Origin: Halarchaeum grantii | GTDB taxonomy: Archaea; Halobacteriota; Halobacteria; Halobacteriales; Halobacteriaceae | Length of the DNA stretch: 64,000 bases | Assembly (NCBI RefSeq): GCF_014647455.2 | Contig: NZ_BMPF01000002.1 | Coordinates: forward strand, 248,001-312,000 | Reading direction: 5' to 3' | Shown here: in pieces, positions 41,165-52,376 of the stretch | Numbering within the stretch: the first letter of the stretch is position 1 | Layout of the letters: the number at the start of each line of letters is the position of its first letter | Position numbers and translations under genes: made by a program | Notes under the pieces: generated by a model | Told to the model about the DNA's origin: nothing | Database searches by the model: none | Seen by the model: the letters and a program-made list of their open reading frames with translations, nothing else

Positions 41165-42055
41165 CTACCGCTCGGACTCGCGGTAGGCCGCGACGGCGTC
41201 CGCGTACCCCTCGCGGAACGTCGGATACGCGAACTCGTAGCCCAGCGAGCGCAGGAGGCGGTTCGAGCAGCGCTTGCTCGTCGTGAGGCGGCGCCGCGCC
41301 GCCTCCGAGAGGTCGTCGGCGTCGAGGCGCTCCGCGCGCGTCACCGTCTCCGGCGCCTCGACCCCGCAGGCGTCCGCGAGCCACTCCGCGAGCGCGATCC
41401 GCGACACCGGCTCGTCGTCCACCGCGAGCAGGACGGGTTCGTCCGTCTCCGTCAGCGCGAAGCGGACGACGCCCGCCGCGTCGTCGCGGTGCAGCATGTT
41501 CAGGTAGCCCTCGACGACCGTCCCCGAGAGGTAGCGCTCCAACCGATATCTGTCGGGCCCGTAGAGGCCGGCGAAGCGGACGACGCGCCCGGCCATCCCG
41601 TGCTCGGCCGCCCGCTCACGGGCGACGCGCTCGGCCTCGACGAGCACCTCCGTCTTCGCCGTCGTCGGCTCGAGGTCGGTCTCCTCGTCCACCCAGTCGC
41701 CGCCGTGGTCGCCGTAGACGCCCGTGCTCGACGTGTAGACGAACTGTTCCGGCGGGCTGTCGCGTTCGCCGAACGCGTCGATGGCGGTACGCAGCCCCTC
41801 GACGTAGACGCGGCGCGCGGCCGCCGCGTCGCGCCCGCCCGAGGACGCCGCGAAGACCACCGCGTCGACGTCCGGGACCCTCGTCAGGTCGTCCGCGTCC
41901 GTCACGTCCGCGCGGACGGCCTCGAAGCCCGCGTCCTCGATAGCGGCGGCGCCCGACTCGGAGCGCCGGACGCCCACGGGGTCGTGGCCCGACTCGCGGA
42001 GCTGGCGGCCGAGCTCGATGCCGACGTAGCCACAGCCCAGTATCGCGACGCGCAT
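41165..42055 (-). CDS. NAD-dependent epimerase/SDR-family protein
   Basis: The 296-residue extended SDR has the Rossmann motif RVAILGCGYVGIELGRQLRE, FVYTSSTGVYGDHGG near residue 110 (active-site Ser/Thr with TGVYG), and RFAGLYGPDR with the GLYGP loop. The family includes YeeZ/nucleoside-diphosphate-sugar epimerases. The catalytic YxxxK is not obvious: KTEVLVEAERVARE replaces the usual Tyr region, as in YeeZ-type members. It is directly adjacent (0-nt gap) to the DUF5791-type gene upstream. Confidence 0.82.
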   Translation of the reverse strand: MRVAILGCGYVGIELGRQLRESGHDPVGVRRSESGAAAIEDAGFEAVRADVTDADDLTRVPDVDAVVFAASSGGRDAAAARRVYVEGLRTAIDAFGERDSPPEQFVYTSSTGVYGDHGGDWVDEETDLEPTTAKTEVLVEAERVARERAAEHGMAGRVVRFAGLYGPDRYRLERYLSGTVVEGYLNMLHRDDAAGVVRFALTETDEPVLLAVDDEPVSRIALAEWLADACGVEAPETVTRAERLDADDLSEAARRRLTTSKRCSNRLLRSLGYEFAYPTFREGYADAVAAYRESER

Positions 42056-42487
42056 CTACCAGGGGTTCTCCGACGCCAGATACTGCGTGACGCGCGCGTA
42101 CTCGGAGAGCGACATCGCGCGTCGGCCCTCGACCTTCTGCTGGAGTTCCTTCGCGTCGAGCTCCGTCTCGATGCCGCGACGGAGCGAGTCGACGTCGACG
42201 ACCGCCGAGCTCATCTGGAGCATCAGGTGGTCGCGGACCTCGAGGAGGTAGTCCTCGGCCGACGGGTAGTCCGGCGAGCAGGCGAGCAGCGCTGCCGCCT
42301 CCTCGAGCGTCACGTCGTCGGCGTCCCCCGCGACGATGGCCTCGACGCGCTCCGCGGAGAGGTCCGTTTCGCCCGCGACGGCGTCCACGCCGCGCTCCTC
42401 GGTGACAGCCGTCAGCGCCGCCAGATACCGCGTTCGGATCTCCGTTGCCGACGTCGCCTCCGGGTCCGCGATTTCCTCGGTGAGCAT
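42056..42487 (-). CDS. Conserved haloarchaeal protein (DUF5791-type)
   Basis: The 143-residue protein is predominantly helical with VAGETDLSAERVEAIVAG resembling an HTH and a conserved EVRDHLMLQMSSAVVDVDSLR segment. I recall haloarchaeal homologues as DUF5791, of unknown function. It ends immediately before the epimerase ATG, which suggests co-transcription, and begins about 50 nt downstream of the pilus-like cluster on the same strand. Confidence 0.75.
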   Translation of the reverse strand: MLTEEIADPEATSATEIRTRYLAALTAVTEERGVDAVAGETDLSAERVEAIVAGDADDVTLEEAAALLACSPDYPSAEDYLLEVRDHLMLQMSSAVVDVDSLRRGIETELDAKELQQKVEGRRAMSLSEYARVTQYLASENPW

Positions 42488-42538: not shown

Positions 42539-45241
42539 CTACCAGCCGGCAGAGCGCTCGTCCGCGTCGCCCACGTCGCCGACGCCGCGCGGGCCCGGCG
42601 GGACGACGACCACGACGCCCGTCCGGTACGCGAAGTCGAGTCGCGCGTTCCGGCCGAGCGTCTCGGGGACGCCGTCGCCGTCCACGTCGACGGCGACCGG
42701 CGCGTCCTCGCGGACGTACCGCAGTGAGCCGTCGCCGACGCCCGGGCGGCCGAGCGCCGCCGCCACCTCGAAGCGCTCGTAGCCGCCGTGCGCGGCGACG
42801 TCCCACGCGTTCACCGTGACGTACCACTGGCCGGGGAGCGGGAGCAGCGGTATCCCCGCCGGGAGCAATCGGAGCGCGGAGCGCTCGACGGCGCGCTCGC
42901 CCGCACTCTGGGTGGCGTCCGCGACGGCGCGGTGCGCAGCGTCGCGAACCGAGGACTCGACGGACGCTCGCGCCGACGAGACGGTCGACTCGCCGACGGA
43001 GAGCGCGCCCGAGGACTCGAGGTCGCGGAGCGCGACGCGGAGGCGCGCGGCGAGGACACCGGAACGGCCACCCTCGCGCTCGTTCGCGGCGGCCGCGACC
43101 GACTCGGCGACCGACCCGTTCGCGACGGCGAGTCCGCGAGCCGCTACCGTTCCGTACTGTCCGAACCCCGCATCGAGCGCCTGTTCGCGCTCGTTCGCGG
43201 AGAGCGCGGTGTGGGTATCGAGCGCGGTGTCGAGCCCGTCGCGTGCGCTCTCGACGGACGCGGAGACGCCGCGACGGAGGCCGGCGTCCGCGACGGGCAC
43301 CTCGTCGGCCGCCCGGAGCGTCCCGGCGGCGGTCGCGAGCGCCACCCGCTCGCGGCGGTCCCCGAAGACGATGTCGAGCACGGCGTCCGCGAGGTCCTCG
43401 GAGGGAATCGTCGCGAGGTTCGTGTTCCGCGCACCGAGCGGGTAGTGCGCCGATTCGACCGCCGCGTCGGTCGGCGTGACGCGTGCGAGCGAGAGGTACG
43501 CGGGCTCACTCGACACGCGCATCGCGACCGGGGGCGCGGCCGGTCCAGCGACCGGTGGCGGCGTCGTCGGGACGTCGCGCTCGGCGAGCGCGTCACCGAT
43601 CCGGGACTGGGCCCGCGCGAGCGTGGAGCGCCGGTCCTCGACGAGCGCGCGCACGCGGTCGGCGTACGACGCGCGGACGGCGACGGCCGCCCGCTCGCGC
43701 AGCGTCGTCGCGCCTGCCGTGTCGGTGTCGACCGCCGCGTCCACGGCCGTGGTGAGCGACGCGAGCGGCTCCCCGTCGAGGAACGAGCGCCGGTCGACGT
43801 GGCTCGTGACGGTCCGGAGCGTCGCGTGCGTCTCCGCGAGCGCGTCGAGCGCCGCCGCGCGCCGCGCGCCCGAGACCGTCGGCTCGACCGTGAACGAGTC
43901 GTCGAGTGCGCCGTCGAGGGCGCGCTCGCCGACCGAGTCGGGAAGAGCGCTCCGGACGGCGCGGCGGACGGCAGCGGACGCGAGCCACCTCGAGTCGTCG
44001 CCGACGACCGGGAGGGCCGCGTCCGTGTGGAGGCGGACGCCGACGGTGACGGCGACCGCGCGGGTCCGGTTGTCGCGCGAGACGGTGCGGTGGAGCGTCG
44101 CGTGATGACGGTAGCCGGCGGGCGTCGGGGGCGCGGCGACGCTCGCGTTCGCGTCGCCGACGCGCGTCGCGAGGCGGACGTCGACGGCGTACGCCCGCGA
44201 GAGCGCGGCGTCGAACCCGCCCCCGTCGACGGACGCGACGAACGCGTCGTCCGCGACCGGTGCGAGCGGCACCGGCTGGGGGCTCGCCGCGCCGGGGTGG
44301 AGGTCGGCAGTCGCGTCCGCGACGGTCGCGGCCGCGGACGAACCGTTCGCCGCGGTCACGTTCGCGTTCGCCGCTGCGACGCCGACGCCGGCGAGTGCGT
44401 CGCGGCCGGCGGTGGCGACGGCCGCGCGCCGAGTCGCGGCGCGGGCGTCCGGGTCCGCCGCGCCGAACGCCGCTCGCTGGAGGGCGACGACGCCGCGGTT
44501 CGTCACGAGCGCGACGTGGCGGTTCGCGACGACGTTGTCGACCGGCGCGCCGCCGTACTGGGCGAGGCCGCGTGTCTCCGCGAGAACCGTGAGCGAGGCG
44601 GTGGCGCGGCGCGCGAGTCCGGACCCCGCGAAGACGCCGGTGTTCAGGCGCTCCTCGAACGTCGCGACGCGCCCGTGGACGGCGAGCACGGGCGTGGGAG
44701 CGGTGACGACGAGCGGGCGGGCGATGCGCTCTATGACGGCGCCGTTCCGCGTCGCGGTGACGGTCACGTCCCGGACGTGAACGCGGAGCGCGCTCCCGTC
44801 GTCGACGCCGGCGAGCGTGACGCGCTCGACGGCGGCACGAGCGTCGGCCGGCGTCTCGATCGGCGGGAGCGACGCGACGGCGCGGACGCCTTCGACGGTG
44901 ACGGGACTCGCCGCGAGCGCGTCCCGGACACCGACGTAGATGCGGAGGCGGAGCGCGTCGCGGAACGGCTGGCTCGCGTTCAGGGCGCGCCCGTAGGACG
45001 TGTTCGCGACCGCCACGACAGGCGACCGCGCGGCGTCGACGCTCGCGGTGAGGGCGGCGCGCTCGGCGGCGGCGCCGGCGGCGCTCCACGACGCGCCGAT
45101 GGCGGGCCCGGCGTCGTAGCCCGTCTGCGACGGCTTCACGGCGATGCCGGTGGCGAGCGTCGCGCTCGTGACGAGGAGGAGCGCGCCGATCACCGCGAAC
45201 GGGATGCGAGCGCGCTGGTCGGGGAACGGATCGACTCTCAC
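42539..45241 (-). CDS. 900-residue exported protein of the pilus-like cluster (DUF7286-type)
   Basis: The protein opens with RVDPFPDQRARIPFAVIGAL and one hydrophobic helix (about 13-35), like a pilin-type or signal-anchor N-terminus, followed by about 850 residues of Ala/Val/Thr-rich, extracytoplasmic-looking sequence. Near the C-terminus, GIPLLPLPGQWYVTVNAWDV is followed by FRYRTG-like positive residues and a Pro/Gly-rich end. I recall it as DUF7286. GTG 45241 gives the 4-nt GTGA overlap with the upstream stop typical of this cluster. Probably the major surface component or scaffold of the machine; this is inferred. Confidence 0.78.
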   Translation of the reverse strand: MRVDPFPDQRARIPFAVIGALLLVTSATLATGIAVKPSQTGYDAGPAIGASWSAAGAAAERAALTASVDAARSPVVAVANTSYGRALNASQPFRDALRLRIYVGVRDALAASPVTVEGVRAVASLPPIETPADARAAVERVTLAGVDDGSALRVHVRDVTVTATRNGAVIERIARPLVVTAPTPVLAVHGRVATFEERLNTGVFAGSGLARRATASLTVLAETRGLAQYGGAPVDNVVANRHVALVTNRGVVALQRAAFGAADPDARAATRRAAVATAGRDALAGVGVAAANANVTAANGSSAAATVADATADLHPGAASPQPVPLAPVADDAFVASVDGGGFDAALSRAYAVDVRLATRVGDANASVAAPPTPAGYRHHATLHRTVSRDNRTRAVAVTVGVRLHTDAALPVVGDDSRWLASAAVRRAVRSALPDSVGERALDGALDDSFTVEPTVSGARRAAALDALAETHATLRTVTSHVDRRSFLDGEPLASLTTAVDAAVDTDTAGATTLRERAAVAVRASYADRVRALVEDRRSTLARAQSRIGDALAERDVPTTPPPVAGPAAPPVAMRVSSEPAYLSLARVTPTDAAVESAHYPLGARNTNLATIPSEDLADAVLDIVFGDRRERVALATAAGTLRAADEVPVADAGLRRGVSASVESARDGLDTALDTHTALSANEREQALDAGFGQYGTVAARGLAVANGSVAESVAAAANEREGGRSGVLAARLRVALRDLESSGALSVGESTVSSARASVESSVRDAAHRAVADATQSAGERAVERSALRLLPAGIPLLPLPGQWYVTVNAWDVAAHGGYERFEVAAALGRPGVGDGSLRYVREDAPVAVDVDGDGVPETLGRNARLDFAYRTGVVVVVPPGPRGVGDVGDADERSAGW

Positions 45242-45726
45242 GGCGACCACGTCCGGACGGTGAGGTGGACGGGCGCGTCCCCGCAGGCGTCGTCAGCGGT
45301 CGGAACGGAGAGCGTGACGGCGTCGACGCCGACGCCACGGGGCGGGGTCGGGCCGGCCGTGACGTCGACCGCGCGGCAGGGGTCCTCGGGCCGCCACGTC
45401 GCGGTGAGCGCGGCGGTCCGCGTGGTGTCCGCGAGGGAGCGCGTCGCGGCGGTCGAGACGGCGTCGGCGTAGCCGGGCACGCGGTCGCGGCCGTCGGCGA
45501 CGGCGGCGTCGACGAGGAGCGCGGCGAGCGTGCCGTGGACGGTTCGGTTCGCGACGGTGACGGACGCCGTGCTGTCGAGGACGGCCCGCGCCGTCGCGCT
45601 CGGGTCCGTCGTGTCGGGCGCGCTGTCGTCGGGGACGACGGTCGTGAGCGCGACGACGCCGGCGGCGACGAGGATGACGCAGACGGCGACGTCGAGGACG
45701 GTGCTGAGGCCGCGGTCGTCGCTCAT
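45238..45726 (-). CDS. Pilin-like protein of the cluster
   Basis: The 162-residue protein has a short charged N-terminus (MSDDR) and a hydrophobic helix GLSTVLDVAVCVILVAAGVVAL, the layout of archaeal pilin-like (class III-type) signal peptides without a perfect prepilin peptidase site. The rest is a soluble, Thr/Val-rich domain with two cysteines (EDPCRAVDV, DDACGDAPV) that may form a disulphide. ATG 45726 overlaps the upstream stop by 4 nt. I recall it as one of the DUF7283-7288 families. Confidence 0.75.
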   Translation of the reverse strand: MSDDRGLSTVLDVAVCVILVAAGVVALTTVVPDDSAPDTTDPSATARAVLDSTASVTVANRTVHGTLAALLVDAAVADGRDRVPGYADAVSTAATRSLADTTRTAALTATWRPEDPCRAVDVTAGPTPPRGVGVDAVTLSVPTADDACGDAPVHLTVRTWSP

Positions 45727-46112
45727 CGCCACACCACCACGGAGAGCCGGCCGGGGCGGACGGTCGCGTTCGAGACGCGGACCGGGAGCGCCGTCGCGGC
45801 GGTGTCGGCGCGCGCGGCGGGACGCGGCGGGCCGACCGCCCACGTCCGGGTCGCGGTGCGGAGCGTCGCGTTCATCGAGTACGTACCGGGAACCCCGCGA
45901 ACGGCGGCCGCCAGCCCCGCTGGGTCGGCGGGGCCGGGGCCGAGGTGGCCGTCGACGTGCGCGAGCGCGGCGTCGGCATGCGCGGGCGAGGCGGCGTCGA
46001 GCGGGACCTGCGCGTACGCGACGCCATAGACGCCGAGCGCGGCGGTGAGTGCGAGGACGGCGGCGAGCGCGGCCGTGGGCTCGACCTGTGCCCTACCCGA
46101 GGAGCGTGACAT
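45723..46112 (-). CDS. Pilin-like protein of the cluster
   Basis: The 129-residue protein begins MSRSSGRAQVEPTAALAAVLALTAALGVYGVAYA, a pilin-like hydrophobic helix after a basic stretch and an E-P near the helix start (as in RAQVEP). The remaining 95 residues are exported-type, with GTYSMNATLRTATRTW. Start could also be GTG 46118, two codons upstream. It overlaps the upstream gene by 20 nt and the downstream one by 4 nt. Confidence 0.73.
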   Translation of the reverse strand: MSRSSGRAQVEPTAALAAVLALTAALGVYGVAYAQVPLDAASPAHADAALAHVDGHLGPGPADPAGLAAAVRGVPGTYSMNATLRTATRTWAVGPPRPAARADTAATALPVRVSNATVRPGRLSVVVWR

Positions 46113-46557
46113 CGACACCTCCGTTGACGACGTGGCGAACAGTCAGCGGTCCGTCAGTGGATCGCCAGTCGGCGTCGGTCGCGTTCGCGCCGGCGTCGGC
46201 GACGGCGGCCCGGAACGCCGCAGACGAGGGATAGACGGCGAGCGGCGGATCGCCGTGGAGGACGCGCCGGAGCGCGGGCGTGCTCGCCGGCGTGACCCCC
46301 GGAAGCGACGCGTGCGCGGCGCCGGCGTCGTTCCGGAGGCCGAGACTCGTCGGCCGGACGCGGACGGCGGACGCGTCGACGGGGATGGTGCGTGCGGCGG
46401 CGTGCTCGCCGGCGGCGACCACGCTAACGGCGTTGGCGACGGCAGTCGTGTCGGGCGGCGGCGTACCGGGGATCGCGAGGACGGCGCCGAGCGCGACGGC
46501 ACCGACGGCTGTCAGAGCGATCCAAACGGGGAGCGTGTCGCCGAACGTGTCGGTCAT
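46093..46557 (-). CDS. Small exported protein of the cluster (DUF7283-type)
   Basis: The 154-residue protein has a single N-terminal hydrophobic segment LPVWIALTAVGAVALGAVLAI (about 9-29) and an Ala/Val-rich extracytoplasmic domain ending RHVVNGGVDVTLLG. I recall it as DUF7283. It lies 32 nt behind the TadC-like gene, the only real gap inside the cluster. Confidence 0.75.
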   Translation of the reverse strand: MTDTFGDTLPVWIALTAVGAVALGAVLAIPGTPPPDTTAVANAVSVVAAGEHAAARTIPVDASAVRVRPTSLGLRNDAGAAHASLPGVTPASTPALRRVLHGDPPLAVYPSSAAFRAAVADAGANATDADWRSTDGPLTVRHVVNGGVDVTLLG

Positions 46558-46589
46558 AGGACCCGAGTGGGGCGGTCATCGCGTATAAA

Positions 46590-48278
46590 CTAGAGGAGGA
46601 GTGCGGCGGCCGCGGCGGCGCACGCGTAGCACGCGCCGGCGCTGGCGAGCGCGGTGCCGACGCGAAAGGCGAGTTGGGCGCGCCGGACGCCGCCGTCGAG
46701 GCAGACGCCGAGCGCGGTGAGGACGACGGCAGACCACGCGACGTAGACGCCGACGACGAGGCCGAGCGAGGCGACGGGGAGGACGCTCCCGGTCGCGTCT
46801 TCGAGCGAGCCGACGTGGCCGGCGAGCGTGACGGTGACGCCGGCGACGACGGGCGCGAACAGCCCGCCGGTCCGGACGAGTGTGTCCGCGAGGTCCGCGA
46901 GGTCGGCGCGGGCGTCGTTTTCGAGGCGCTGGACGGCGTCGAGGCCGTCCGCGACTTCCGCGAGGACGCGCCCGCCCGCTCGGCCGCCGGATGCGGCGTC
47001 GAGGAGGAGACCGAGCGTCCCGGAGACGCGCGTGCCGTGCTCGGGGCCGACGACGCCGTGGCGGCCGAAGAAGGCGTCCTCGAGCGGCCGGCCGAGCGCG
47101 CGGCGGGTGCGGTCGGCGGCGGCGAACAGCTCGCCGGTCGGTCCGGGGATGGTCGTGCCGGCGGCGGCGACGGCGGTCTCGGGCGGATCGCCGCCGGCGA
47201 GGCGGCGGCCGACGACCGCGACGGCGTCCGGCAGACCCACGGAGACGGCACGCGCGTGGTCGTCGAGGTCCACGGCCGGGCGGGCGGCGACGGCGAGCGC
47301 GACGCCGACGCCGCAGCAGGGGGCGGCGACGGGGAGCGCCCACGCGACGTCGAGAACGAGGGTTCCGACGGCGGCGAGGAGGGCGGCGCCGAGGCCGAGT
47401 CCGGCGGCGCGGCGTCGGTCGACGCCGGCGGCGGTGTCGGCGCGGCCGGCGGGGAAGACGGCGGGGCGGTGCGCGAGCACCCACGCGGCGGCGCCGACGA
47501 GCGCGAGCGGCAGGAAGACGTCGTAGACGAGCGCGACGGTGCCGAGCGGGAGCGCGACGCCGGCGGCGGGGGCGACGGGAACGAGGCCGACGAGCGCGAG
47601 CGGCAGAACGACGCCGAAGGCGTAGACGGCGTTCACCGGGCCGCGGACGGCGCGAACCCCCTCGCGGACGTGGCGTTCGGTGGCGTCGCGGGCGGCGGCG
47701 AGCGCCCGGTCGAGGACGCGCCCACGGTCGGCTGCGGGCGTCTCGACGGCGGCGTGAACGAGCGCGACGGCGCGCCGGAGTCCCGGGTCCGAGAGGTCGT
47801 CGGTGACGGCGTCGAGCGCCGTCTCGGGCGTGCCGGCCGTGGCCCGAATCCGACGGGCGAGCGCCTCCGCGAGCGGACCGTCGCCGGTTCGGGCGGCGAA
47901 CGCGGCGGCGGCTTCGGCGGACGGGTCGAGGCGGACGCGGAGCGCGAGGCGCGCGACGAACGCCGGCCCGGAGCCGACGACGCGGCTCCCGTGGAGGGCG
48001 AGCGCGAGGTCGGGGACGCGGAGGACGGCGTAGCCGACGGCGACGGCGTACGTCACGGCGACGAGGCCGACGAGCGGGGCGACGGCGAGCGCGGGGAAAG
48101 CGAGGAGGGCGAGGAGACCGCAGGCGGCGGCGAGCCGAGCGAGGCCCTCGGGCGCCGTCCGCCAGCCGAGGTCGTCGAGCGTCGCGGCGAGGCCGTCGGG
48201 GGCGGGGACGGGCCAGTCCGGAAGTCGGGCGGCGGCACGGCCGAGCGCGTCGTCGATGGCGGGGAAGGGGCGGGTCAC
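46590..48278 (-). CDS. Type II/IV secretion platform protein (TadC/PilC/FlaJ-like), two T2SSF domains
   Basis: The 562-residue membrane protein has two T2SS-F-type domains. Each has a cytoplasmic helical bundle followed by paired membrane helices: LARRIRATAGTPETALDAVTDDLSDPGLRRAV then a C-terminal copy GGRVLAEVADGLDAVQRLENDARADLADLAD. Eight or so membrane segments are visible. This is the inner-membrane platform on which the ATPase works in archaeal type IV pilus-like systems. Its ATG overlaps the ATPase stop by 4 nt. Confidence 0.85.
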   Translation of the reverse strand: MTRPFPAIDDALGRAAARLPDWPVPAPDGLAATLDDLGWRTAPEGLARLAAACGLLALLAFPALAVAPLVGLVAVTYAVAVGYAVLRVPDLALALHGSRVVGSGPAFVARLALRVRLDPSAEAAAAFAARTGDGPLAEALARRIRATAGTPETALDAVTDDLSDPGLRRAVALVHAAVETPAADRGRVLDRALAAARDATERHVREGVRAVRGPVNAVYAFGVVLPLALVGLVPVAPAAGVALPLGTVALVYDVFLPLALVGAAAWVLAHRPAVFPAGRADTAAGVDRRRAAGLGLGAALLAAVGTLVLDVAWALPVAAPCCGVGVALAVAARPAVDLDDHARAVSVGLPDAVAVVGRRLAGGDPPETAVAAAGTTIPGPTGELFAAADRTRRALGRPLEDAFFGRHGVVGPEHGTRVSGTLGLLLDAASGGRAGGRVLAEVADGLDAVQRLENDARADLADLADTLVRTGGLFAPVVAGVTVTLAGHVGSLEDATGSVLPVASLGLVVGVYVAWSAVVLTALGVCLDGGVRRAQLAFRVGTALASAGACYACAAAAAALLL

Positions 48279-50062
48279 GAGACCACCGTGTTCGCGAACG
48301 CGTCCTCGCGCGCCGCGAGCGCGTCGCGGACGTCCGCCTCCGTCTCGCCGGGATGGGCGAGCGACTCGAGCAGCCGGCTCGGGCCATCAACGAGCCGGCG
48401 GGTCGGGGCGAGGCGCGTGCCGTCGAGGGCGTAGAGCGCGTGGAACGCCTCACCGGTGTACTCCTCGACGCTGACGACGCGGTGGACGCCGTCGACGAGT
48501 CCGGCGGTGACGACGAGGTCAGTCGCGGCGAACGCCGAGGGCTCGACGCCGAGGTCGGAGACGACGCGCTCGCGGACGGCGTCGCCGTTCTCGCCGTGGA
48601 TGGTGCCGAGGACCGCGCTGACGTGTGCGCCGATACGCATCGCCTCGTAGAGCGTCCCGGCTTCGGTGCCCCGGACTTCGCCGACGACGAGTGCGCCCTC
48701 GCCGAGGCGGAGCGCGGTGCGCAGGGCGTCGTCGGGCGTGAGGCCGTCGCCGTCGAGGTCGGTCATGAGGCCCTGGACGTCGCGGCCGTCGCGCTGGAGT
48801 GCGGTGACCGGGAGTTCGGGGGTGTCCTCGACGACGACGGTGCGGACGTCGCGCGGGAGCTCGCGGAGGAGCGCGGCGAGGAGGGTGGTCTTCCCGGCGC
48901 CACGGGCGCCCGCGACGAGGCCGGCGGCACCGCGCTCGACGGCGAGCGAGCAGAGCGCGGCCGCCTCGGCGGGGAGCGAGCCGGCGGCGACGAGGCGGGC
49001 GAGCGTCCACGCGTCGTCGCCGTGTGCGCGGAACGCGAAGCCGGGTCCGTCGCTGGCGGGGCCGGTGACGCCGGCGACGCGGACGCGGCGGCCCGCGACG
49101 TCCTCGGCGACAGCGTCGAGCGTCGGGTCGGCGCTGGAGAACGCGCGGCCGCTCCCGGCGCGGAAGCGCGAGGCGAGCGCGGCGGCGCCCTCGGCGGTGA
49201 GCCGAACGTTCGTCCGGTGGCGCTCGCCCGCGCAGCGGACGTAGAGCGGCGTCGCGTCGGCGGGCGCGGGCGCGAAGACGTCAGTGACGCGCTCGTCGGC
49301 GAAGAGGTCGTCGAGGACGCCGTAGCCCTGCGTGTGCTTGCGGAGGACGCGCGCGAGCGACTGGACGCGCGCCGGGTCGTCGCAGACGGCGGCGACGGCG
49401 CGGTCGGCTCGGGGTTCGTCGCCGGCGACGAGTCGGTCGGTGGCGGCGTCGAGGACGCCGTAGTCGGCGTCGGTGAGCCGCGCCTCGGGCGGGTCGAGGT
49501 GGTAGACGGGGAGCGCGCCCGGCCGGTCGTAGCAGCGCACGGTCGTCTCGGTGGCGACGTCGCTCACGTCACGGAGCGCGGCGTCACCGGGCGGCGACGG
49601 ATCGACGCGCGCGAGCGCGACGGCCGGCCCGACGTAGGCGGCGTAGGGATCGTCGACGGCGGCGGCGTCCGCGAGGCCGCTCTCGTCGAGGAGCGACGCG
49701 ACGGGACCGACGCGGCCGGCGGCTTCGCGGGCGGCGGCGAGCGGGTCGCGGCGGGCGTGCGCGGCGAGCCCGGGGTCGGTGGCGGCGACCCGCGCGGCGA
49801 ACGACCCGGCGGCGCCGAGGAGCGCGGCGGTCCGGTCGGCGTAGCGGCGTTCGAGGCCGGCGGATTCGACGCGGACGGTGTCGGTGCGCCGGCCGTCGAG
49901 GGCAGTGACGGCGGCCTCGCGGCAGTCGGGGGCCTCGGCGAGCGACCCACGGCCGGGGCAGTCGCTCGCGTCGATGCGGAGGGCGCCGTCGGCGTACGTC
50001 GGGACGCACGTACACGCCGGCGTGTCGGGGGCCGTGGTGGGGAGGAGGTCGCGGAGCGTCAT
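48275..50062 (-). CDS. Type II/IV secretion ATPase (TadA/FlaI/PilB-like)
   Basis: The 595-residue ATPase has an N-terminal domain with four cysteines in the first 45 residues (CTCVPTYADGALRIDASDC and APDC), probably a zinc site, then the VirB11-type module: Walker A GARGAGKTTL, the Asp box VVVEDTPELPVTALQRDG, Walker B EGALVVGEVRGTEAGTLYEA and the His box VLGTIHGEN. It should power the platform protein encoded next. ATG 50062 (MTLRDLLPTTAP) is preferred to 50086. Confidence 0.88.
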   Translation of the reverse strand: MTLRDLLPTTAPDTPACTCVPTYADGALRIDASDCPGRGSLAEAPDCREAAVTALDGRRTDTVRVESAGLERRYADRTAALLGAAGSFAARVAATDPGLAAHARRDPLAAAREAAGRVGPVASLLDESGLADAAAVDDPYAAYVGPAVALARVDPSPPGDAALRDVSDVATETTVRCYDRPGALPVYHLDPPEARLTDADYGVLDAATDRLVAGDEPRADRAVAAVCDDPARVQSLARVLRKHTQGYGVLDDLFADERVTDVFAPAPADATPLYVRCAGERHRTNVRLTAEGAAALASRFRAGSGRAFSSADPTLDAVAEDVAGRRVRVAGVTGPASDGPGFAFRAHGDDAWTLARLVAAGSLPAEAAALCSLAVERGAAGLVAGARGAGKTTLLAALLRELPRDVRTVVVEDTPELPVTALQRDGRDVQGLMTDLDGDGLTPDDALRTALRLGEGALVVGEVRGTEAGTLYEAMRIGAHVSAVLGTIHGENGDAVRERVVSDLGVEPSAFAATDLVVTAGLVDGVHRVVSVEEYTGEAFHALYALDGTRLAPTRRLVDGPSRLLESLAHPGETEADVRDALAAREDAFANTVVS

Positions 50063-50082
50063 GCGTCGCCGTGGGCGCGCCC

Positions 50083-50574
50083 TCACGTATAAACCCGCGC
50101 GCCGCGTTGCGCGGTCACGAGGACGGTCGGGCGGCCGTCGTAGCGGACGTAGCGGAGGCCGAGCGTCGCGCGGTCGGTGACGGCGAGGCCGGTGTCGTCG
50201 GGTGCGACGGTGCCGTTCGCGACGATGCGGACGTCGACGGGCAGAGGAGTAGTGTGCGTCCGAGTGCCGGCACGGACGACGAGGACGTCGGTCGTCGCGG
50301 CGTCACCGTGACCGGTCCCGACGAGGAGCGCCGCGCGCGCCGTCGTGACGTCGGCGGGCGGGACGGAGACGGTGACGGTGCGGGTCGCGGCGGGCGCACC
50401 GGGCGGTGCGGGCGTGCTCGCGGCGAGCGCGACGACGGCGTCACGGACGTCGTCGGCGGCGGTCTGGCCGGCGTGTGCGGCGTTACTCGCGCGTGCGTCC
50501 TCGACGGCGGGGGCGGCGGCGACGGTGAGGGCGGCGGCGAGCACGACGGCGAGCGCGACGCGGAGCGGCGTCAC
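50083..50574 (-). CDS. Exported protein of the cluster (DUF7311-type)
   Basis: The 163-residue protein has an N-terminal hydrophobic segment LRVALAVVLAAALTVAAAPA like a signal peptide, then an exported-type domain ending YDGRPTVLVTAQRGARVYT. I recall it as DUF7311, always beside the ATPase. It overlaps the upstream gene by 4 nt. Confidence 0.72.
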   Translation of the reverse strand: MTPLRVALAVVLAAALTVAAAPAVEDARASNAAHAGQTAADDVRDAVVALAASTPAPPGAPAATRTVTVSVPPADVTTARAALLVGTGHGDAATTDVLVVRAGTRTHTTPLPVDVRIVANGTVAPDDTGLAVTDRATLGLRYVRYDGRPTVLVTAQRGARVYT

Positions 50575-50993
50575 TTCCCGAGGAGACGTGCGAGGAACCC
50601 GGCGTCACGGCTATCGGCATTCTGCGCCGGTTCCGGCGTGGGGTCCGGGTCGGGGAGGTCGGGAATCGGGTGGGCGGCGGGCGGCCGCTCGGCGGCGGCG
50701 AGCGCGGCGTTCGCGCGGCGCTCGACCGACTCGTTCACCGCCTCAAAGTCGCCGACGTACCCCTGGAGGGCCTGCGTCGCCGCGTCGAGGTCGTCGAGGC
50801 GGCGTTCGACGGTGTCGAGGCGGTCGGCGAGCGCGGCGATGTCGTCGGCCGGGGTGTCGCCGCCGGGGTCGGTGTCGTGCGCGAGGCGTTCGACGGCGCG
50901 GAGGCGCGCGTCCAGCGACGCGACGTCGGGAGCGCGGGCGTCACGTCGGGTCTCGCGGTGGGCGGTTTCGGGGCGGGGTGTCTCGGGCGGCAT
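50571..50993 (-). CDS. Coiled-coil protein heading the pilus-like cluster (DUF7310-type)
   Basis: The 140-residue cytoplasmic protein has a heptad coiled coil at about 24-95 (SLDARLRAVERLAHD, ALADRLDTVERRLDDLDAATQALQG), a Pro-rich acidic linker and a short C-terminal tail GFLARLLGK. It has no membrane segment. It is the first gene of the cluster, with overlapping ATGA to the next, and may be an assembly or regulatory partner. I recall it as DUF7310. Confidence 0.72.
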   Translation of the reverse strand: MPPETPRPETAHRETRRDARAPDVASLDARLRAVERLAHDTDPGGDTPADDIAALADRLDTVERRLDDLDAATQALQGYVGDFEAVNESVERRANAALAAAERPPAAHPIPDLPDPDPTPEPAQNADSRDAGFLARLLGK

Positions 50994-51026
50994 GCGCCGG
51001 GGTGGGCCCGCGACCCTACAAGAAGG

Positions 51027-52376
51027 TTAGCCCCGGACGAGGCTGCCGCCGTCGAACTCGGTGGCGTCGAAGTCGATCTCCATGAGGTCGAGCATCGTCG
51101 GCGTCAGGTCGAAGAGGTTGGCCTCGTCGATGGAGACGCGGGGGTCGTCGGTGACGAGCGTCGCGTTCTCGAAGGAGTGCATGCCGTTACGCGGGCCCTT
51201 CTCGAATATCTCCTCGGACCCACGGAAGCCGGCCTTCAGGTCGAAGCCGTGGTTCGGGATGGCGACGAGGTCGGGCGCGATTTCGTCGTGCGCGCCCGCG
51301 AAGGCGTCCTCCTTCTCGACGACGCGCTCGACGACCGGTTCGCCGTCCGGGCCTTCGAGGGATTCGATGGCCGCCTTGAGTTCGTCGCGGACCTCGTGGT
51401 AGTCCTCCTCGGGGACGCTCCCGTCGGGTTCGCGCCCTTCGAGGTTGAGGTAGAAGCGCCCGGGGACGAAGGCGTACGCGCGGGTGTCGTTGTCGATATC
51501 GCCGAGGCTGTCGTGCTCGTCGGACTCGAAGGAGAGCCATCCCTCGTCCTCGAGCCACTGGTTGAGGTGGACTTCGTAGTCGAGCGTGGTGAAGCCGTGG
51601 TCGGAGGCGATGACGAAGGTGACGTCGTCGGGCGCGGCGTCGCGGAGCTTCCCGATGTACTCGTCGACCTGCCGGTAGAAGTCGAGGAACTCCTCCTTGT
51701 GCTCGCCGTCGCGCTGGTAGTCCTCGAAGAGGAAGTGGTTCACGCGGTCGGTGGTCATGAAGACCCCGAAGAAGAGGTCCCAGTCGTCTCCGGTGAGGTA
51801 GTGGTCGAAGGCCTCGTAGCGTTTGTCGAGGGTGCGGTGGGCGTCGTCGATGAACTCCGATTTGTCCTCCTTGTGGCCGAGTTTGGCGTTGACGTCGATG
51901 CGGTAGCCCTGCTCGTCGAGGTAGTCGGCGACGTCGCTCGGGTTGGAGGCCTTCTTCACGCCGGGGGAGAGGAACCCGGAGACCATCCGGTCGACGTTGC
52001 GCTGGGGCGGGAAGGTGACGGGGACGTTGAAGACGGACGCGGAGCGGTCGGCGTCGGTGACGCGGTCCCAGACCCGGGTCGCCTGCACGTCGCGGCCCAT
52101 CGGAACGTAGGTGTCGTAGGTTCCTGTCTCGCGGTCCTGAAAGCCGTAGACGCCGGTCTTTCCGGGGTTGACGCCGGTGGTCAGGGAGGGCCAGCAGGCG
52201 CTCGATTCGGGGGGCACGATGCTCTCGATGGCGCCGCCGGCACCGTTCTCGGCGATCTCGGTGAGGTTCTCGAACACCCCGGGGTTGTCCGCGACGAGCG
52301 AGTACGGCACGCCGTCGATACCGATGAAGGCGACCCGTGGCCCGTCGTCACCACGGAGTCGGTCGAAGAGTCCCAT
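51027..52376 (-). CDS. Alkaline-phosphatase-fold phosphodiesterase/nucleotide pyrophosphatase
   Basis: The 449-residue protein has the metal-binding layout of type I phosphodiesterases: VAFIGIDGVPYSLV with the first Asp, SSACWPSLTTGVNPGKTGVYGF with the nucleophile Ser/Thr region, VFMTTDRVNHFLFED and FVIASDHGFTTL (DH metal ligands), and the C-terminal GMHSFENATLV histidine. Substrate is not evident; haloarchaeal members sit near glycosylation or sulfur-metabolism genes, but none is adjacent here. ATG 52376 (MGLFDRLRGDDGP) is preferred over longer in-frame starts. Confidence 0.85.
   Translation of the reverse strand: MGLFDRLRGDDGPRVAFIGIDGVPYSLVADNPGVFENLTEIAENGAGGAIESIVPPESSACWPSLTTGVNPGKTGVYGFQDRETGTYDTYVPMGRDVQATRVWDRVTDADRSASVFNVPVTFPPQRNVDRMVSGFLSPGVKKASNPSDVADYLDEQGYRIDVNAKLGHKEDKSEFIDDAHRTLDKRYEAFDHYLTGDDWDLFFGVFMTTDRVNHFLFEDYQRDGEHKEEFLDFYRQVDEYIGKLRDAAPDDVTFVIASDHGFTTLDYEVHLNQWLEDEGWLSFESDEHDSLGDIDNDTRAYAFVPGRFYLNLEGREPDGSVPEEDYHEVRDELKAAIESLEGPDGEPVVERVVEKEDAFAGAHDEIAPDLVAIPNHGFDLKAGFRGSEEIFEKGPRNGMHSFENATLVTDDPRVSIDEANLFDLTPTMLDLMEIDFDATEFDGGSLVRG

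Follow-up and report, generated by a model that had tools for sequence, protein, structure and literature searches.

Layout and conservation of the cluster

In the window, that is, the whole stretch of 64,000 nucleotides of Halarchaeum grantii DNA analyzed here, we found eight open reading frames on the minus strand running from position 50993 to position 42539, so that the eight-gene cluster of the original prediction is real. The gene order is DUF7310, DUF7311, ATPase, T2SSF-like platform, DUF7283, DUF7285, DUF7284, and DUF7286, and seven of the eight proteins match a Pfam family above its curated cut-off (DUF7310, DUF7311, T2SSE, DUF7283, DUF7285, DUF7284, and DUF7286). According to the ORF list, the junctions DUF7310/DUF7311, DUF7311/ATPase, and ATPase/platform overlap by 4 nt, and those of DUF7283/DUF7285, DUF7285/DUF7284, and DUF7284/DUF7286 overlap as well, whereas 32 nt separate the platform gene from DUF7283. 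Its encoding as a single unit is supported. The likelier start of DUF7286 is not 45250 but the GTG at 45241, where the overlap is 4 nt (GTGA). A bacterial-type scan, which is uninformative for archaea, returned no promoter for the cluster.

A survey of gene order, as proposed in the original prediction, recovered the full eight-gene order in 70 of 80 named haloarchaeal loci, which excludes chance; in the remaining 10 loci, members are missing, split, or incompletely detected. The flanks, also on the minus strand, are conserved: a type I phosphodiesterase/nucleotide pyrophosphatase gene upstream (51027..52373; Pfam E 5e-52) and, on the other side, a gene for a DUF5791 protein (42056..42487) followed by an epimerase/SDR-like gene (41165..42055). 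The DUF5791 gene lies outside the machine and is kept also where the operon is gone. A CetZ match occurs in 55 of the 80 named loci and not in the window. Moreover, across the 50 loci that have most of each protein, evolutionary distances of the operon proteins correlate tightly among themselves (r 0.88-0.94).

Proteins of the cluster

The first gene, in the window as in 70 of the 80 loci, encodes DUF7310 (50571..50993; 140 aa; Pfam E 7e-23), a predicted cytoplasmic protein that bears out the expected coiled-coil component. DUF7311 (50083..50574; 163 aa; Pfam E 1.5e-26) has a short N-terminal hydrophobic segment and a domain, with no prepilin motif. The third gene encodes a PilB/TadA-type secretion ATPase (48275..50086; 603 aa), whose T2SSE match (E 7e-17) is above the Pfam cut-off and places it in the PilB/VirB11 family; its best NCBIfam family is TadA (TIGR03819), at 117 bits and below the cut-off of that family. 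The N-terminal Cys4 module (CxC..C..C) noticed earlier is present in all 102 haloarchaeal ATPase rows, a count restricted to filtered rows from which matches starting beyond model position 60 were dropped.

The next gene encodes a PilC/TadC-like membrane platform (46590..48278; 562 aa) with seven hydrophobic segments. The window's protein itself has no Pfam match, T2SSF included, and its T2SSF-like character comes from its family, in which 24 of 30 aligned members, a set that leaves out the window's protein, match T2SSF (best E 2e-7). A doubling of T2SSF finds no support: an hhalign comparison of the N-terminal with the C-terminal half gave P 0.029 and a probability of 1.7 %. A comparison of the platform family (eight members) with two PilC proteins of the same genome was likewise too weak to link them (P 0.006, probability 6 %).

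Four further proteins complete the cluster. DUF7283 (46093..46557; 154 aa; Pfam E 3e-37) has an N-terminal membrane anchor with no prepilin motif, while prepilin-like N-termini are found in DUF7285 (45723..46118; 131 aa; Pfam E 2.5e-21; R[GA]Q[VT]EP) and DUF7284 (45238..45729; 163 aa; Pfam E 3e-14; RGLSTVLD). DUF7286 (42539..45250; about 900 aa; Pfam E 8e-208) combines a RARIPFAVIG anchor helix with a large alpha/beta ectodomain. As a sequence motif, [KR][GA] followed by a hydrophobic stretch occurs at the N-terminus of 77 of 79 DUF7285 and 78 of 79 DUF7286 proteins, the latter with a conserved R[GA]R[VI]PFA-type anchor (78/79), and in 34 of 78 DUF7284 proteins, about half of the orthologues having lost it; the internal controls DUF7283 (0/77) and DUF7311 (6/71) contrast with this pattern. 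The statement that the cluster contains no known pilin was thus too strong for DUF7285, DUF7286, and part of DUF7284. A prepilin peptidase is indeed missing from the cluster; the genome has one Arc_PepC_II match at a different locus (G000:C1:1010935; E 9e-7, 30.9 bits over 29.9). DUF7285 is weakly homologous to DUF7287, which is encoded in a different pil operon of this genome. When profiles of the four small proteins were compared with one another, none were significantly linked. No major pilin was found within the cluster.

The predicted structure of DUF7285 (pLDDT 88.6) consists of a transmembrane helix, two helices, and a four-stranded sheet, and its modeled soluble part is closest to the fold of a ribosomal S3 domain (Z about 8), an arrangement that occurs widely; no pilin is among the fold matches listed for this model. 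The DUF7286 model (pLDDT 79.7) places a C-terminal beta-domain at residues about 812-903, and its fold search gave no PDB match with E < 0.001 and a VIA Z of at most 6.4. The size of DUF7286 is unusual for a pilin subunit. A viral origin is unsupported: at the search sensitivity applied, viral contigs yielded no relative of DUF7286.

A candidate pilus and its described relatives

The features of the cluster fit the subclade 4F type IV pilus defined in silico by Makarova, Koonin, and Albers (2016, PMC4858521). In the available part of that paper, the halobacterial 4F variant comprises an ATPase with an N-terminal cysteine-rich domain, a platform, several pilin-like proteins, and a cytoplasmic coiled-coil protein (arCOG07564) unique to the halobacterial form; the subclade has methanogen relatives and, in Halobacteria, a CetZ-family gene nearby. 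Apart from cetZ, which is absent beside the window copy, the cluster has counterparts of these features, and their gene-by-gene identity is inferred; the coiled coil DUF7310 is the probable counterpart of the 4F coiled-coil component. Brown and Duggin (2023, PMC9856176), in the portion available, describe a pilB2/C2 regulon with one surface protein and seven predicted pilins, the latter count including the ATPase and the platform. Its neighbors (an epimerase, a small hypothetical or transcription-factor-like protein, and a phosphodiesterase) match those of the cluster, and judging from order and description, the epimerase and DUF5791 genes would be arCOG03095 and arCOG04674. That regulon adjoins cetZ2, in contrast to the window copy. 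The name PilB2 is unsettled, as the excerpt of PMC6491452 puts H. volcanii PilB2 in subclade 4C. Because a system with matching neighbors and components has thus been described in silico, at least as far as the accessible text of PMC4858521 and PMC9856176 extends, the cluster can no longer be called an undescribed system: the machine is already catalogued computationally, and what is new here is the relics at its site and a cassette pattern in methanogens. The names DUF7283, DUF7284, DUF7286, and DUF7310 are absent from the literature searched, and in its available parts we found no filament, cleavage, phenotype, or any experiment for the cluster.

Other pili are more distant. The Haloferax PilB1-C1 (4C) and PilB3/PilB4 pili have in common with the cluster the ATPase-platform-pilin logic, N-termini of the R[GA]Q and R[GA]VS type, and the weak DUF7285-DUF7287 homology. 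However, the paralogous ATPases of the same genome share only about 26-29 % identity with the cluster ATPase and do not group in its clade, and the operons have different pilin families and no DUF7286 was found in them. The bacterial Tad pilus, whose TadA family is the closest to the cluster ATPase in NCBIfam, has two single-domain platform genes, tadB and tadC, where the cluster has one, and its TadZ and secretin are absent from the cluster. In the ATPase tree, cluster and methanogen ATPases form one clade, split from 11 paralogues with 100/100 support; the tree excludes two bad rows (L107 and L180) and the long paralogue own7, and with these three included, the split had 94/93 support. As a test of 4F membership, this methanogen grouping comes from a tree that contained no labeled 4F reference sequence.

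The cluster probably makes up a complete unit for assembling a type IV pilus-like filament of the archaeal subclade 4F or pilB2-C2 kind, consistent with the earlier call of a pilus-like surface machine of unknown product. This reading is supported because the cluster joins seven Pfam families and a T2SSF-like platform in an order kept in 70 of 80 loci, because prepilin-like N-termini are specific to DUF7285, DUF7286, and part of DUF7284 when set against the DUF7283 and DUF7311 controls, and because DUF7285 is weakly related to a pil operon protein in a genome that has a prepilin peptidase. It also draws on the shared clade with methanogens, which carry the DUF7285-7284-7286 set, and on the co-evolution of the operon proteins. 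In the model that we infer from the observed gene content, order, motifs, homologies, and co-inheritance, DUF7285, DUF7286, and motif-bearing DUF7284 would enter the membrane as prepilin-like proteins, where the stand-alone archaeal prepilin peptidase would cleave them after R-[GA]. A hexameric ATPase would then turn on the platform protein, lifting subunits from the membrane; the small subunits would assemble into a minor-pilin complex from which the filament starts, with DUF7286 held at or near the filament tip as a recognition subunit. The filament body may consist of small cluster proteins or of a major pilin from another locus. DUF7310 and the Cys4 module would work on the side of the cytoplasm, with docking or control as their probable role, and the filament may serve in adhesion to surfaces or cells. 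Several points stand against this reading: the DUF7284 motif is kept in a minority, the DUF7285 model has no pilin among its listed matches, the haloarchaeal DUF7286 C-terminal domain is one of the more conserved parts in most pairs, unlike a variable adhesin tip, no major pilin was recognized, and the size of DUF7286 is atypical of pilin subunits.

The same parts could instead build a short pseudopilus that serves as a T2SS-like secretion or release machine, whose cargo would be DUF7286 or the product of a gene at another locus. T2SS-type machines have an ATPase, a T2SSF protein, and pseudopilin-like small proteins in common with the cluster, the lack of a major pilin would suit them, and methanogen DUF7286 is paired with a small secreted protein. 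However, the conserved anchor makes DUF7286 look held in the membrane and not released as cargo, and single-membrane archaea require no piston through an outer membrane; we consider such a machine unlikely. More doubtful still is a stationary envelope complex, a sensor or S-layer anchor built from pilus-type parts with no filament, which would suit the large DUF7286 ectodomain, with its several domains and lack of PDB matches, the missing major pilin, and the S-layer-like proteins reported with 4F systems (PMC4858521, available part), but which is at odds with a dedicated ATPase and platform retained in near-constant order, an arrangement that is costly in energy and argues for assembly and extension.

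Across much of the haloarchaea, this candidate pilus type is found at a single chromosomal site, and methanogens carry homologous gene sets. Its named parts (seven Pfam DUF/T2SSE families), prepilin-like proteins, and loss scars are concrete targets for Haloferax genetics.

Putative methanogen cassettes and relics of the operon

In methanogens, DUF7285, DUF7284, and DUF7286 occur as a gene set with the ATPase encoded elsewhere, and the cysteine-rich N-terminus is present in three of six ATPases, those whose full frame was recovered. Downstream of the full DUF7286 gene lie export-less copies of its C-terminal part with partner genes. The C-terminal domain is the variable part of methanogen DUF7286, as expected of an exposed tip. 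In one genome, the sequences agree at 1019 of 1020 nt and then part abruptly over the last ~100 residues, which suggests cassette exchange in a putative tip protein, a pattern new to this analysis. In haloarchaeal DUF7286, by contrast, the C-terminal domain is among the more conserved parts in most pairs. We tentatively propose, at somewhat less than even odds, that a widespread archaeal pilus has DUF7286 as its tip protein, and that in Methanosarcina-type archaea the outermost beta-domain of this protein and a paired secreted partner are renewed by recombination from silent export-less cassettes, whereas the haloarchaeal tip is constant and the whole machine has been lost repeatedly by deletion. 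We found no print of the Methanosarcina cassette variation in the literature searched. If these cassettes truly generate diversity, they would form an archaeal counterpart to bacterial pilin and tip variation, possibly under selection by viruses or partner cells.

In haloarchaea, broken remnants persist at the same chromosomal site in eight genomes, as DUF7286 tails, DUF7310, or the ATPase Cys4 module. Five relatives retain DUF7286 tails, with DUF7310 kept in three of them and weakly in a fourth; in one genome (G329), the tail carries an internal stop, and in two genomes the Cys4 module is fused in one open frame with DUF5791. Because of these remnants, our data favor repeated loss, newly proposed here, over the recent mobile acquisition favored by Brown and Duggin (2023, PMC9856176, available part). 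Under that account, the operon would be a recently acquired unit beside cetZ2 with an accessory and exchangeable function, which suits its patchy distribution and the identical neighbors with and without it, found in that paper and here. However, insertion predicts clean empty sites, and we consider this account improbable. Gain may have occurred at some sites, because 17 of 20 further DUF5791 sites have no clear relic in 1.5 kb flanks. Also against a mobile unit, operon proteins vary with the flanking genes (r 0.57-0.81, 50 loci) at least as closely as the flanking genes vary with each other (0.47); an earlier set of 68 loci that included partial sequences had given r 0.25 between the operon and two flanking genes.

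The eight-gene operon and its identity

The cluster at 42539-50993 consists of eight minus-strand genes, tight or overlapping in succession, that encode a DUF7310 coiled coil, DUF7311, a T2SSE ATPase, a platform protein, DUF7283, DUF7285, DUF7284, and DUF7286, and seven of the eight products have a Pfam match above cut-off. The original prediction of an eight-gene pilus-like machine was correct: all eight ORFs are present. A scan of named genomes yielded 195 relatives; among the 80 loci retained from these for order analysis, 70 keep the complete order DUF7310-DUF7311-ATPase-platform-DUF7283-DUF7285-DUF7284-DUF7286. In the other 10, members are absent, the operon is split, or detection is incomplete. 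Rearrangements were seen at L084, where DUF7310 and DUF7283 are placed after DUF7286, and at L086 and L139, where the ATPase-platform block is separated from the pilin block, by strand or by location. The host genome is haloarchaeal, as are all orthologues retained from the named genomes. Of 26 genomes from the host's family, 24 carry DUF7286, as do 113 of 392 sampled from the phylum. The host assembly (3.0 Mb, 13 contigs; window at G000:C2:248001-312000) carries seven T2SSE matches in all.

Judged by sequence, the cluster belongs to an already known kind of archaeal type IV pilus, predicted in silico, and its features agree with subclade 4F of Makarova 2016 (PMC4858521). Brown and Duggin 2023 (PMC9856176) place the pilB2/C2 regulon beside cetZ2 and genes for an epimerase, a phosphodiesterase, and a small conserved protein; apart from cetZ2, the window cluster has these neighbors too. 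A system with matching neighbors being already in print there, the cluster is not the undescribed system that had been proposed. Of the 80 named loci, 55 have a CetZ match, which in 53 cases is encoded on the opposite strand; the window has none, and the best match in the host genome, 51% identical, is located elsewhere. At 50993-51027, cetZ2 is absent; in relatives it commonly separates the operon from the phosphodiesterase gene. Six pilBC pairs are counted in Haloferax volcanii (PMC7921747), and the name PilB2 is used inconsistently (PMC6491452).

The Cys4 pattern is found at the ATPase N-terminus in all 102 rows tested. In an ATPase tree with three poor or long rows dropped beforehand and no labelled 4F sequence included, the window and methanogen ATPases group together (100/100), separate from 11 paralogues, and N-termini are cysteine rich in three of six methanogen ATPases, those with full frames recovered. 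The window platform protein has no Pfam match; in an alignment of 30 proteins of its family, 24 match T2SSF, and a search for the second T2SSF domain of the supposed double platform gave no support.

Prepilin-like subunits

A motif survey covered the five membrane-anchored proteins, with DUF7283 and DUF7311 as internal controls. The residues [KR][GA] immediately precede a hydrophobic stretch in 77/79 DUF7285, 78/79 DUF7286, and 34/78 DUF7284 proteins, compared with 0/77 for DUF7283 and 6/71 for DUF7311; prepilin-like subunits are therefore present in a cluster thought to contain no known pilin. A separate regular-expression count, using other patterns on pooled loci, gave 62/116 for DUF7284, 91/116 for DUF7285, and 116/118 for DUF7286. 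Among the processing sites that PMC4371748 tabulates for archaeal pilins already known are RAQI, KGQV, and RAVS, and the R[GA]Q[VT] of DUF7285 and R[GA][VIL]S of DUF7284 resemble them. At loci of Haloarcula, Haloplanus, Haloferax, and Halorubrum, DUF7284 often begins without the RG leader, directly at MTST[VI]LD or a similar sequence, as though the protein could do without it. Outside the cluster, the host genome has a match to a prepilin peptidase.

DUF7285 shows weak homology to DUF7287 (13 of 55 members match, best E 0.001), and a DUF7287 protein of the host genome, encoded in another pil operon beside DUF7288 and DUF7266, matches DUF7285 with E 4e-4. The DUF7285 model (pLDDT 88.6) contains four strands and three helices, one of which is the anchor; its predicted soluble part resembles ribosomal S3 domains (Z ~8), which we regard as a common arrangement. 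The model of DUF7286, built from 58 sequences (mean pLDDT 79.7, pTM 0.53), has a C-terminal beta-domain and, apart from its anchor helix, several segments that are helix rich or alpha/beta. For this model, no Foldseek hit in the PDB had E < 0.001 and no VIA-align Z exceeded 6.4; the protein may still contain a known fold, because the model covers the whole chain and not domains predicted apart.

Methanogen relatives and DUF7286 copies

Genomes inferred to be Methanocella-like and Methanosarcina-like share a recurrent gene set, DUF7285-DUF7284-DUF7286, which at several loci is preceded by two further small membrane proteins and followed by a secreted protein of ~200 residues. The closest methanogen ATPase, with 41-47% identity and E near 1e-70 (about 1e-20 for the next best), is located away from this set. 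Behind the full gene, some genomes carry copies of the DUF7286 C-terminal part, about 270-445 aa long, that lack the export anchor and are each paired with a secreted protein of their own; the Methanosarcina-type examples are at L093:3100-10006 and L094:8456-18925, and in G144, G158, G325, G355, G369, and G407. In G335, the full gene and one copy are identical at 1019/1020 nt over 17 blocks, beyond which they abruptly diverge; the proteins are 100% identical for ~330 residues, followed by 93, 63, 53, and 40% per 30 residues. Across species of this genus, full-length DUF7286 identity falls from about 80-100% to 50-75% over the last ~100 residues. Within the G335 family, 44 of 80 genomes have a DUF7286 match and ten have more than one; in one of the ten, G078, this is a single gene split in two, and several of the additional pieces are short or have stops. 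We read the export-less copies as possible silent cassettes for a presumed tip domain. The divergent region corresponds to window DUF7286 residues from about 822, and carrying this reading over to the window is disfavored, since the haloarchaeal C-terminal part is at least as conserved as the middle of the protein in most of 13 pairs.

Gain or loss of the operon

Brown and Duggin 2023 (PMC9856176) suggest mobile or recent acquisition of the pilB2/C2 regulon. Broken remains at the operon site and distance correlations between operon and flanks, taken together, favor ancient presence with repeated deletion, some gains being possible. In five relatives, what is left of DUF7286 is a C-terminal tail before DUF5791; three of them keep DUF7310 and a fourth shows it weakly. 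In a further genome, G329, the tail at the operon site has an internal stop; deletion scars of this kind, often with DUF7310 kept, are found at L054, L055, L056, L057, L058, and L102. Within the operon, distance correlations over 50 loci are 0.88-0.94, compared with 0.57-0.81 for operon versus flanks and 0.47 for flank versus flank; with a looser set of 68 loci, operon versus flanks was 0.25. A survey covered 20 DUF5791 sites with 1.5 kb flanks from 22 genomes, 21 of them selected because DUF7286 gave no match and G329 because its match is broken. It found operon relics at 3 sites and none within those flanks at 17, one of which has a DUF7310 match of borderline strength (E 0.009). Two congeneric species (L198:868-1878 and L199) have the Cys4 module of the ATPase, roughly residues 4-150, joined to DUF5791 in a single continuous open frame, perhaps a retained functional domain of the lost ATPase.
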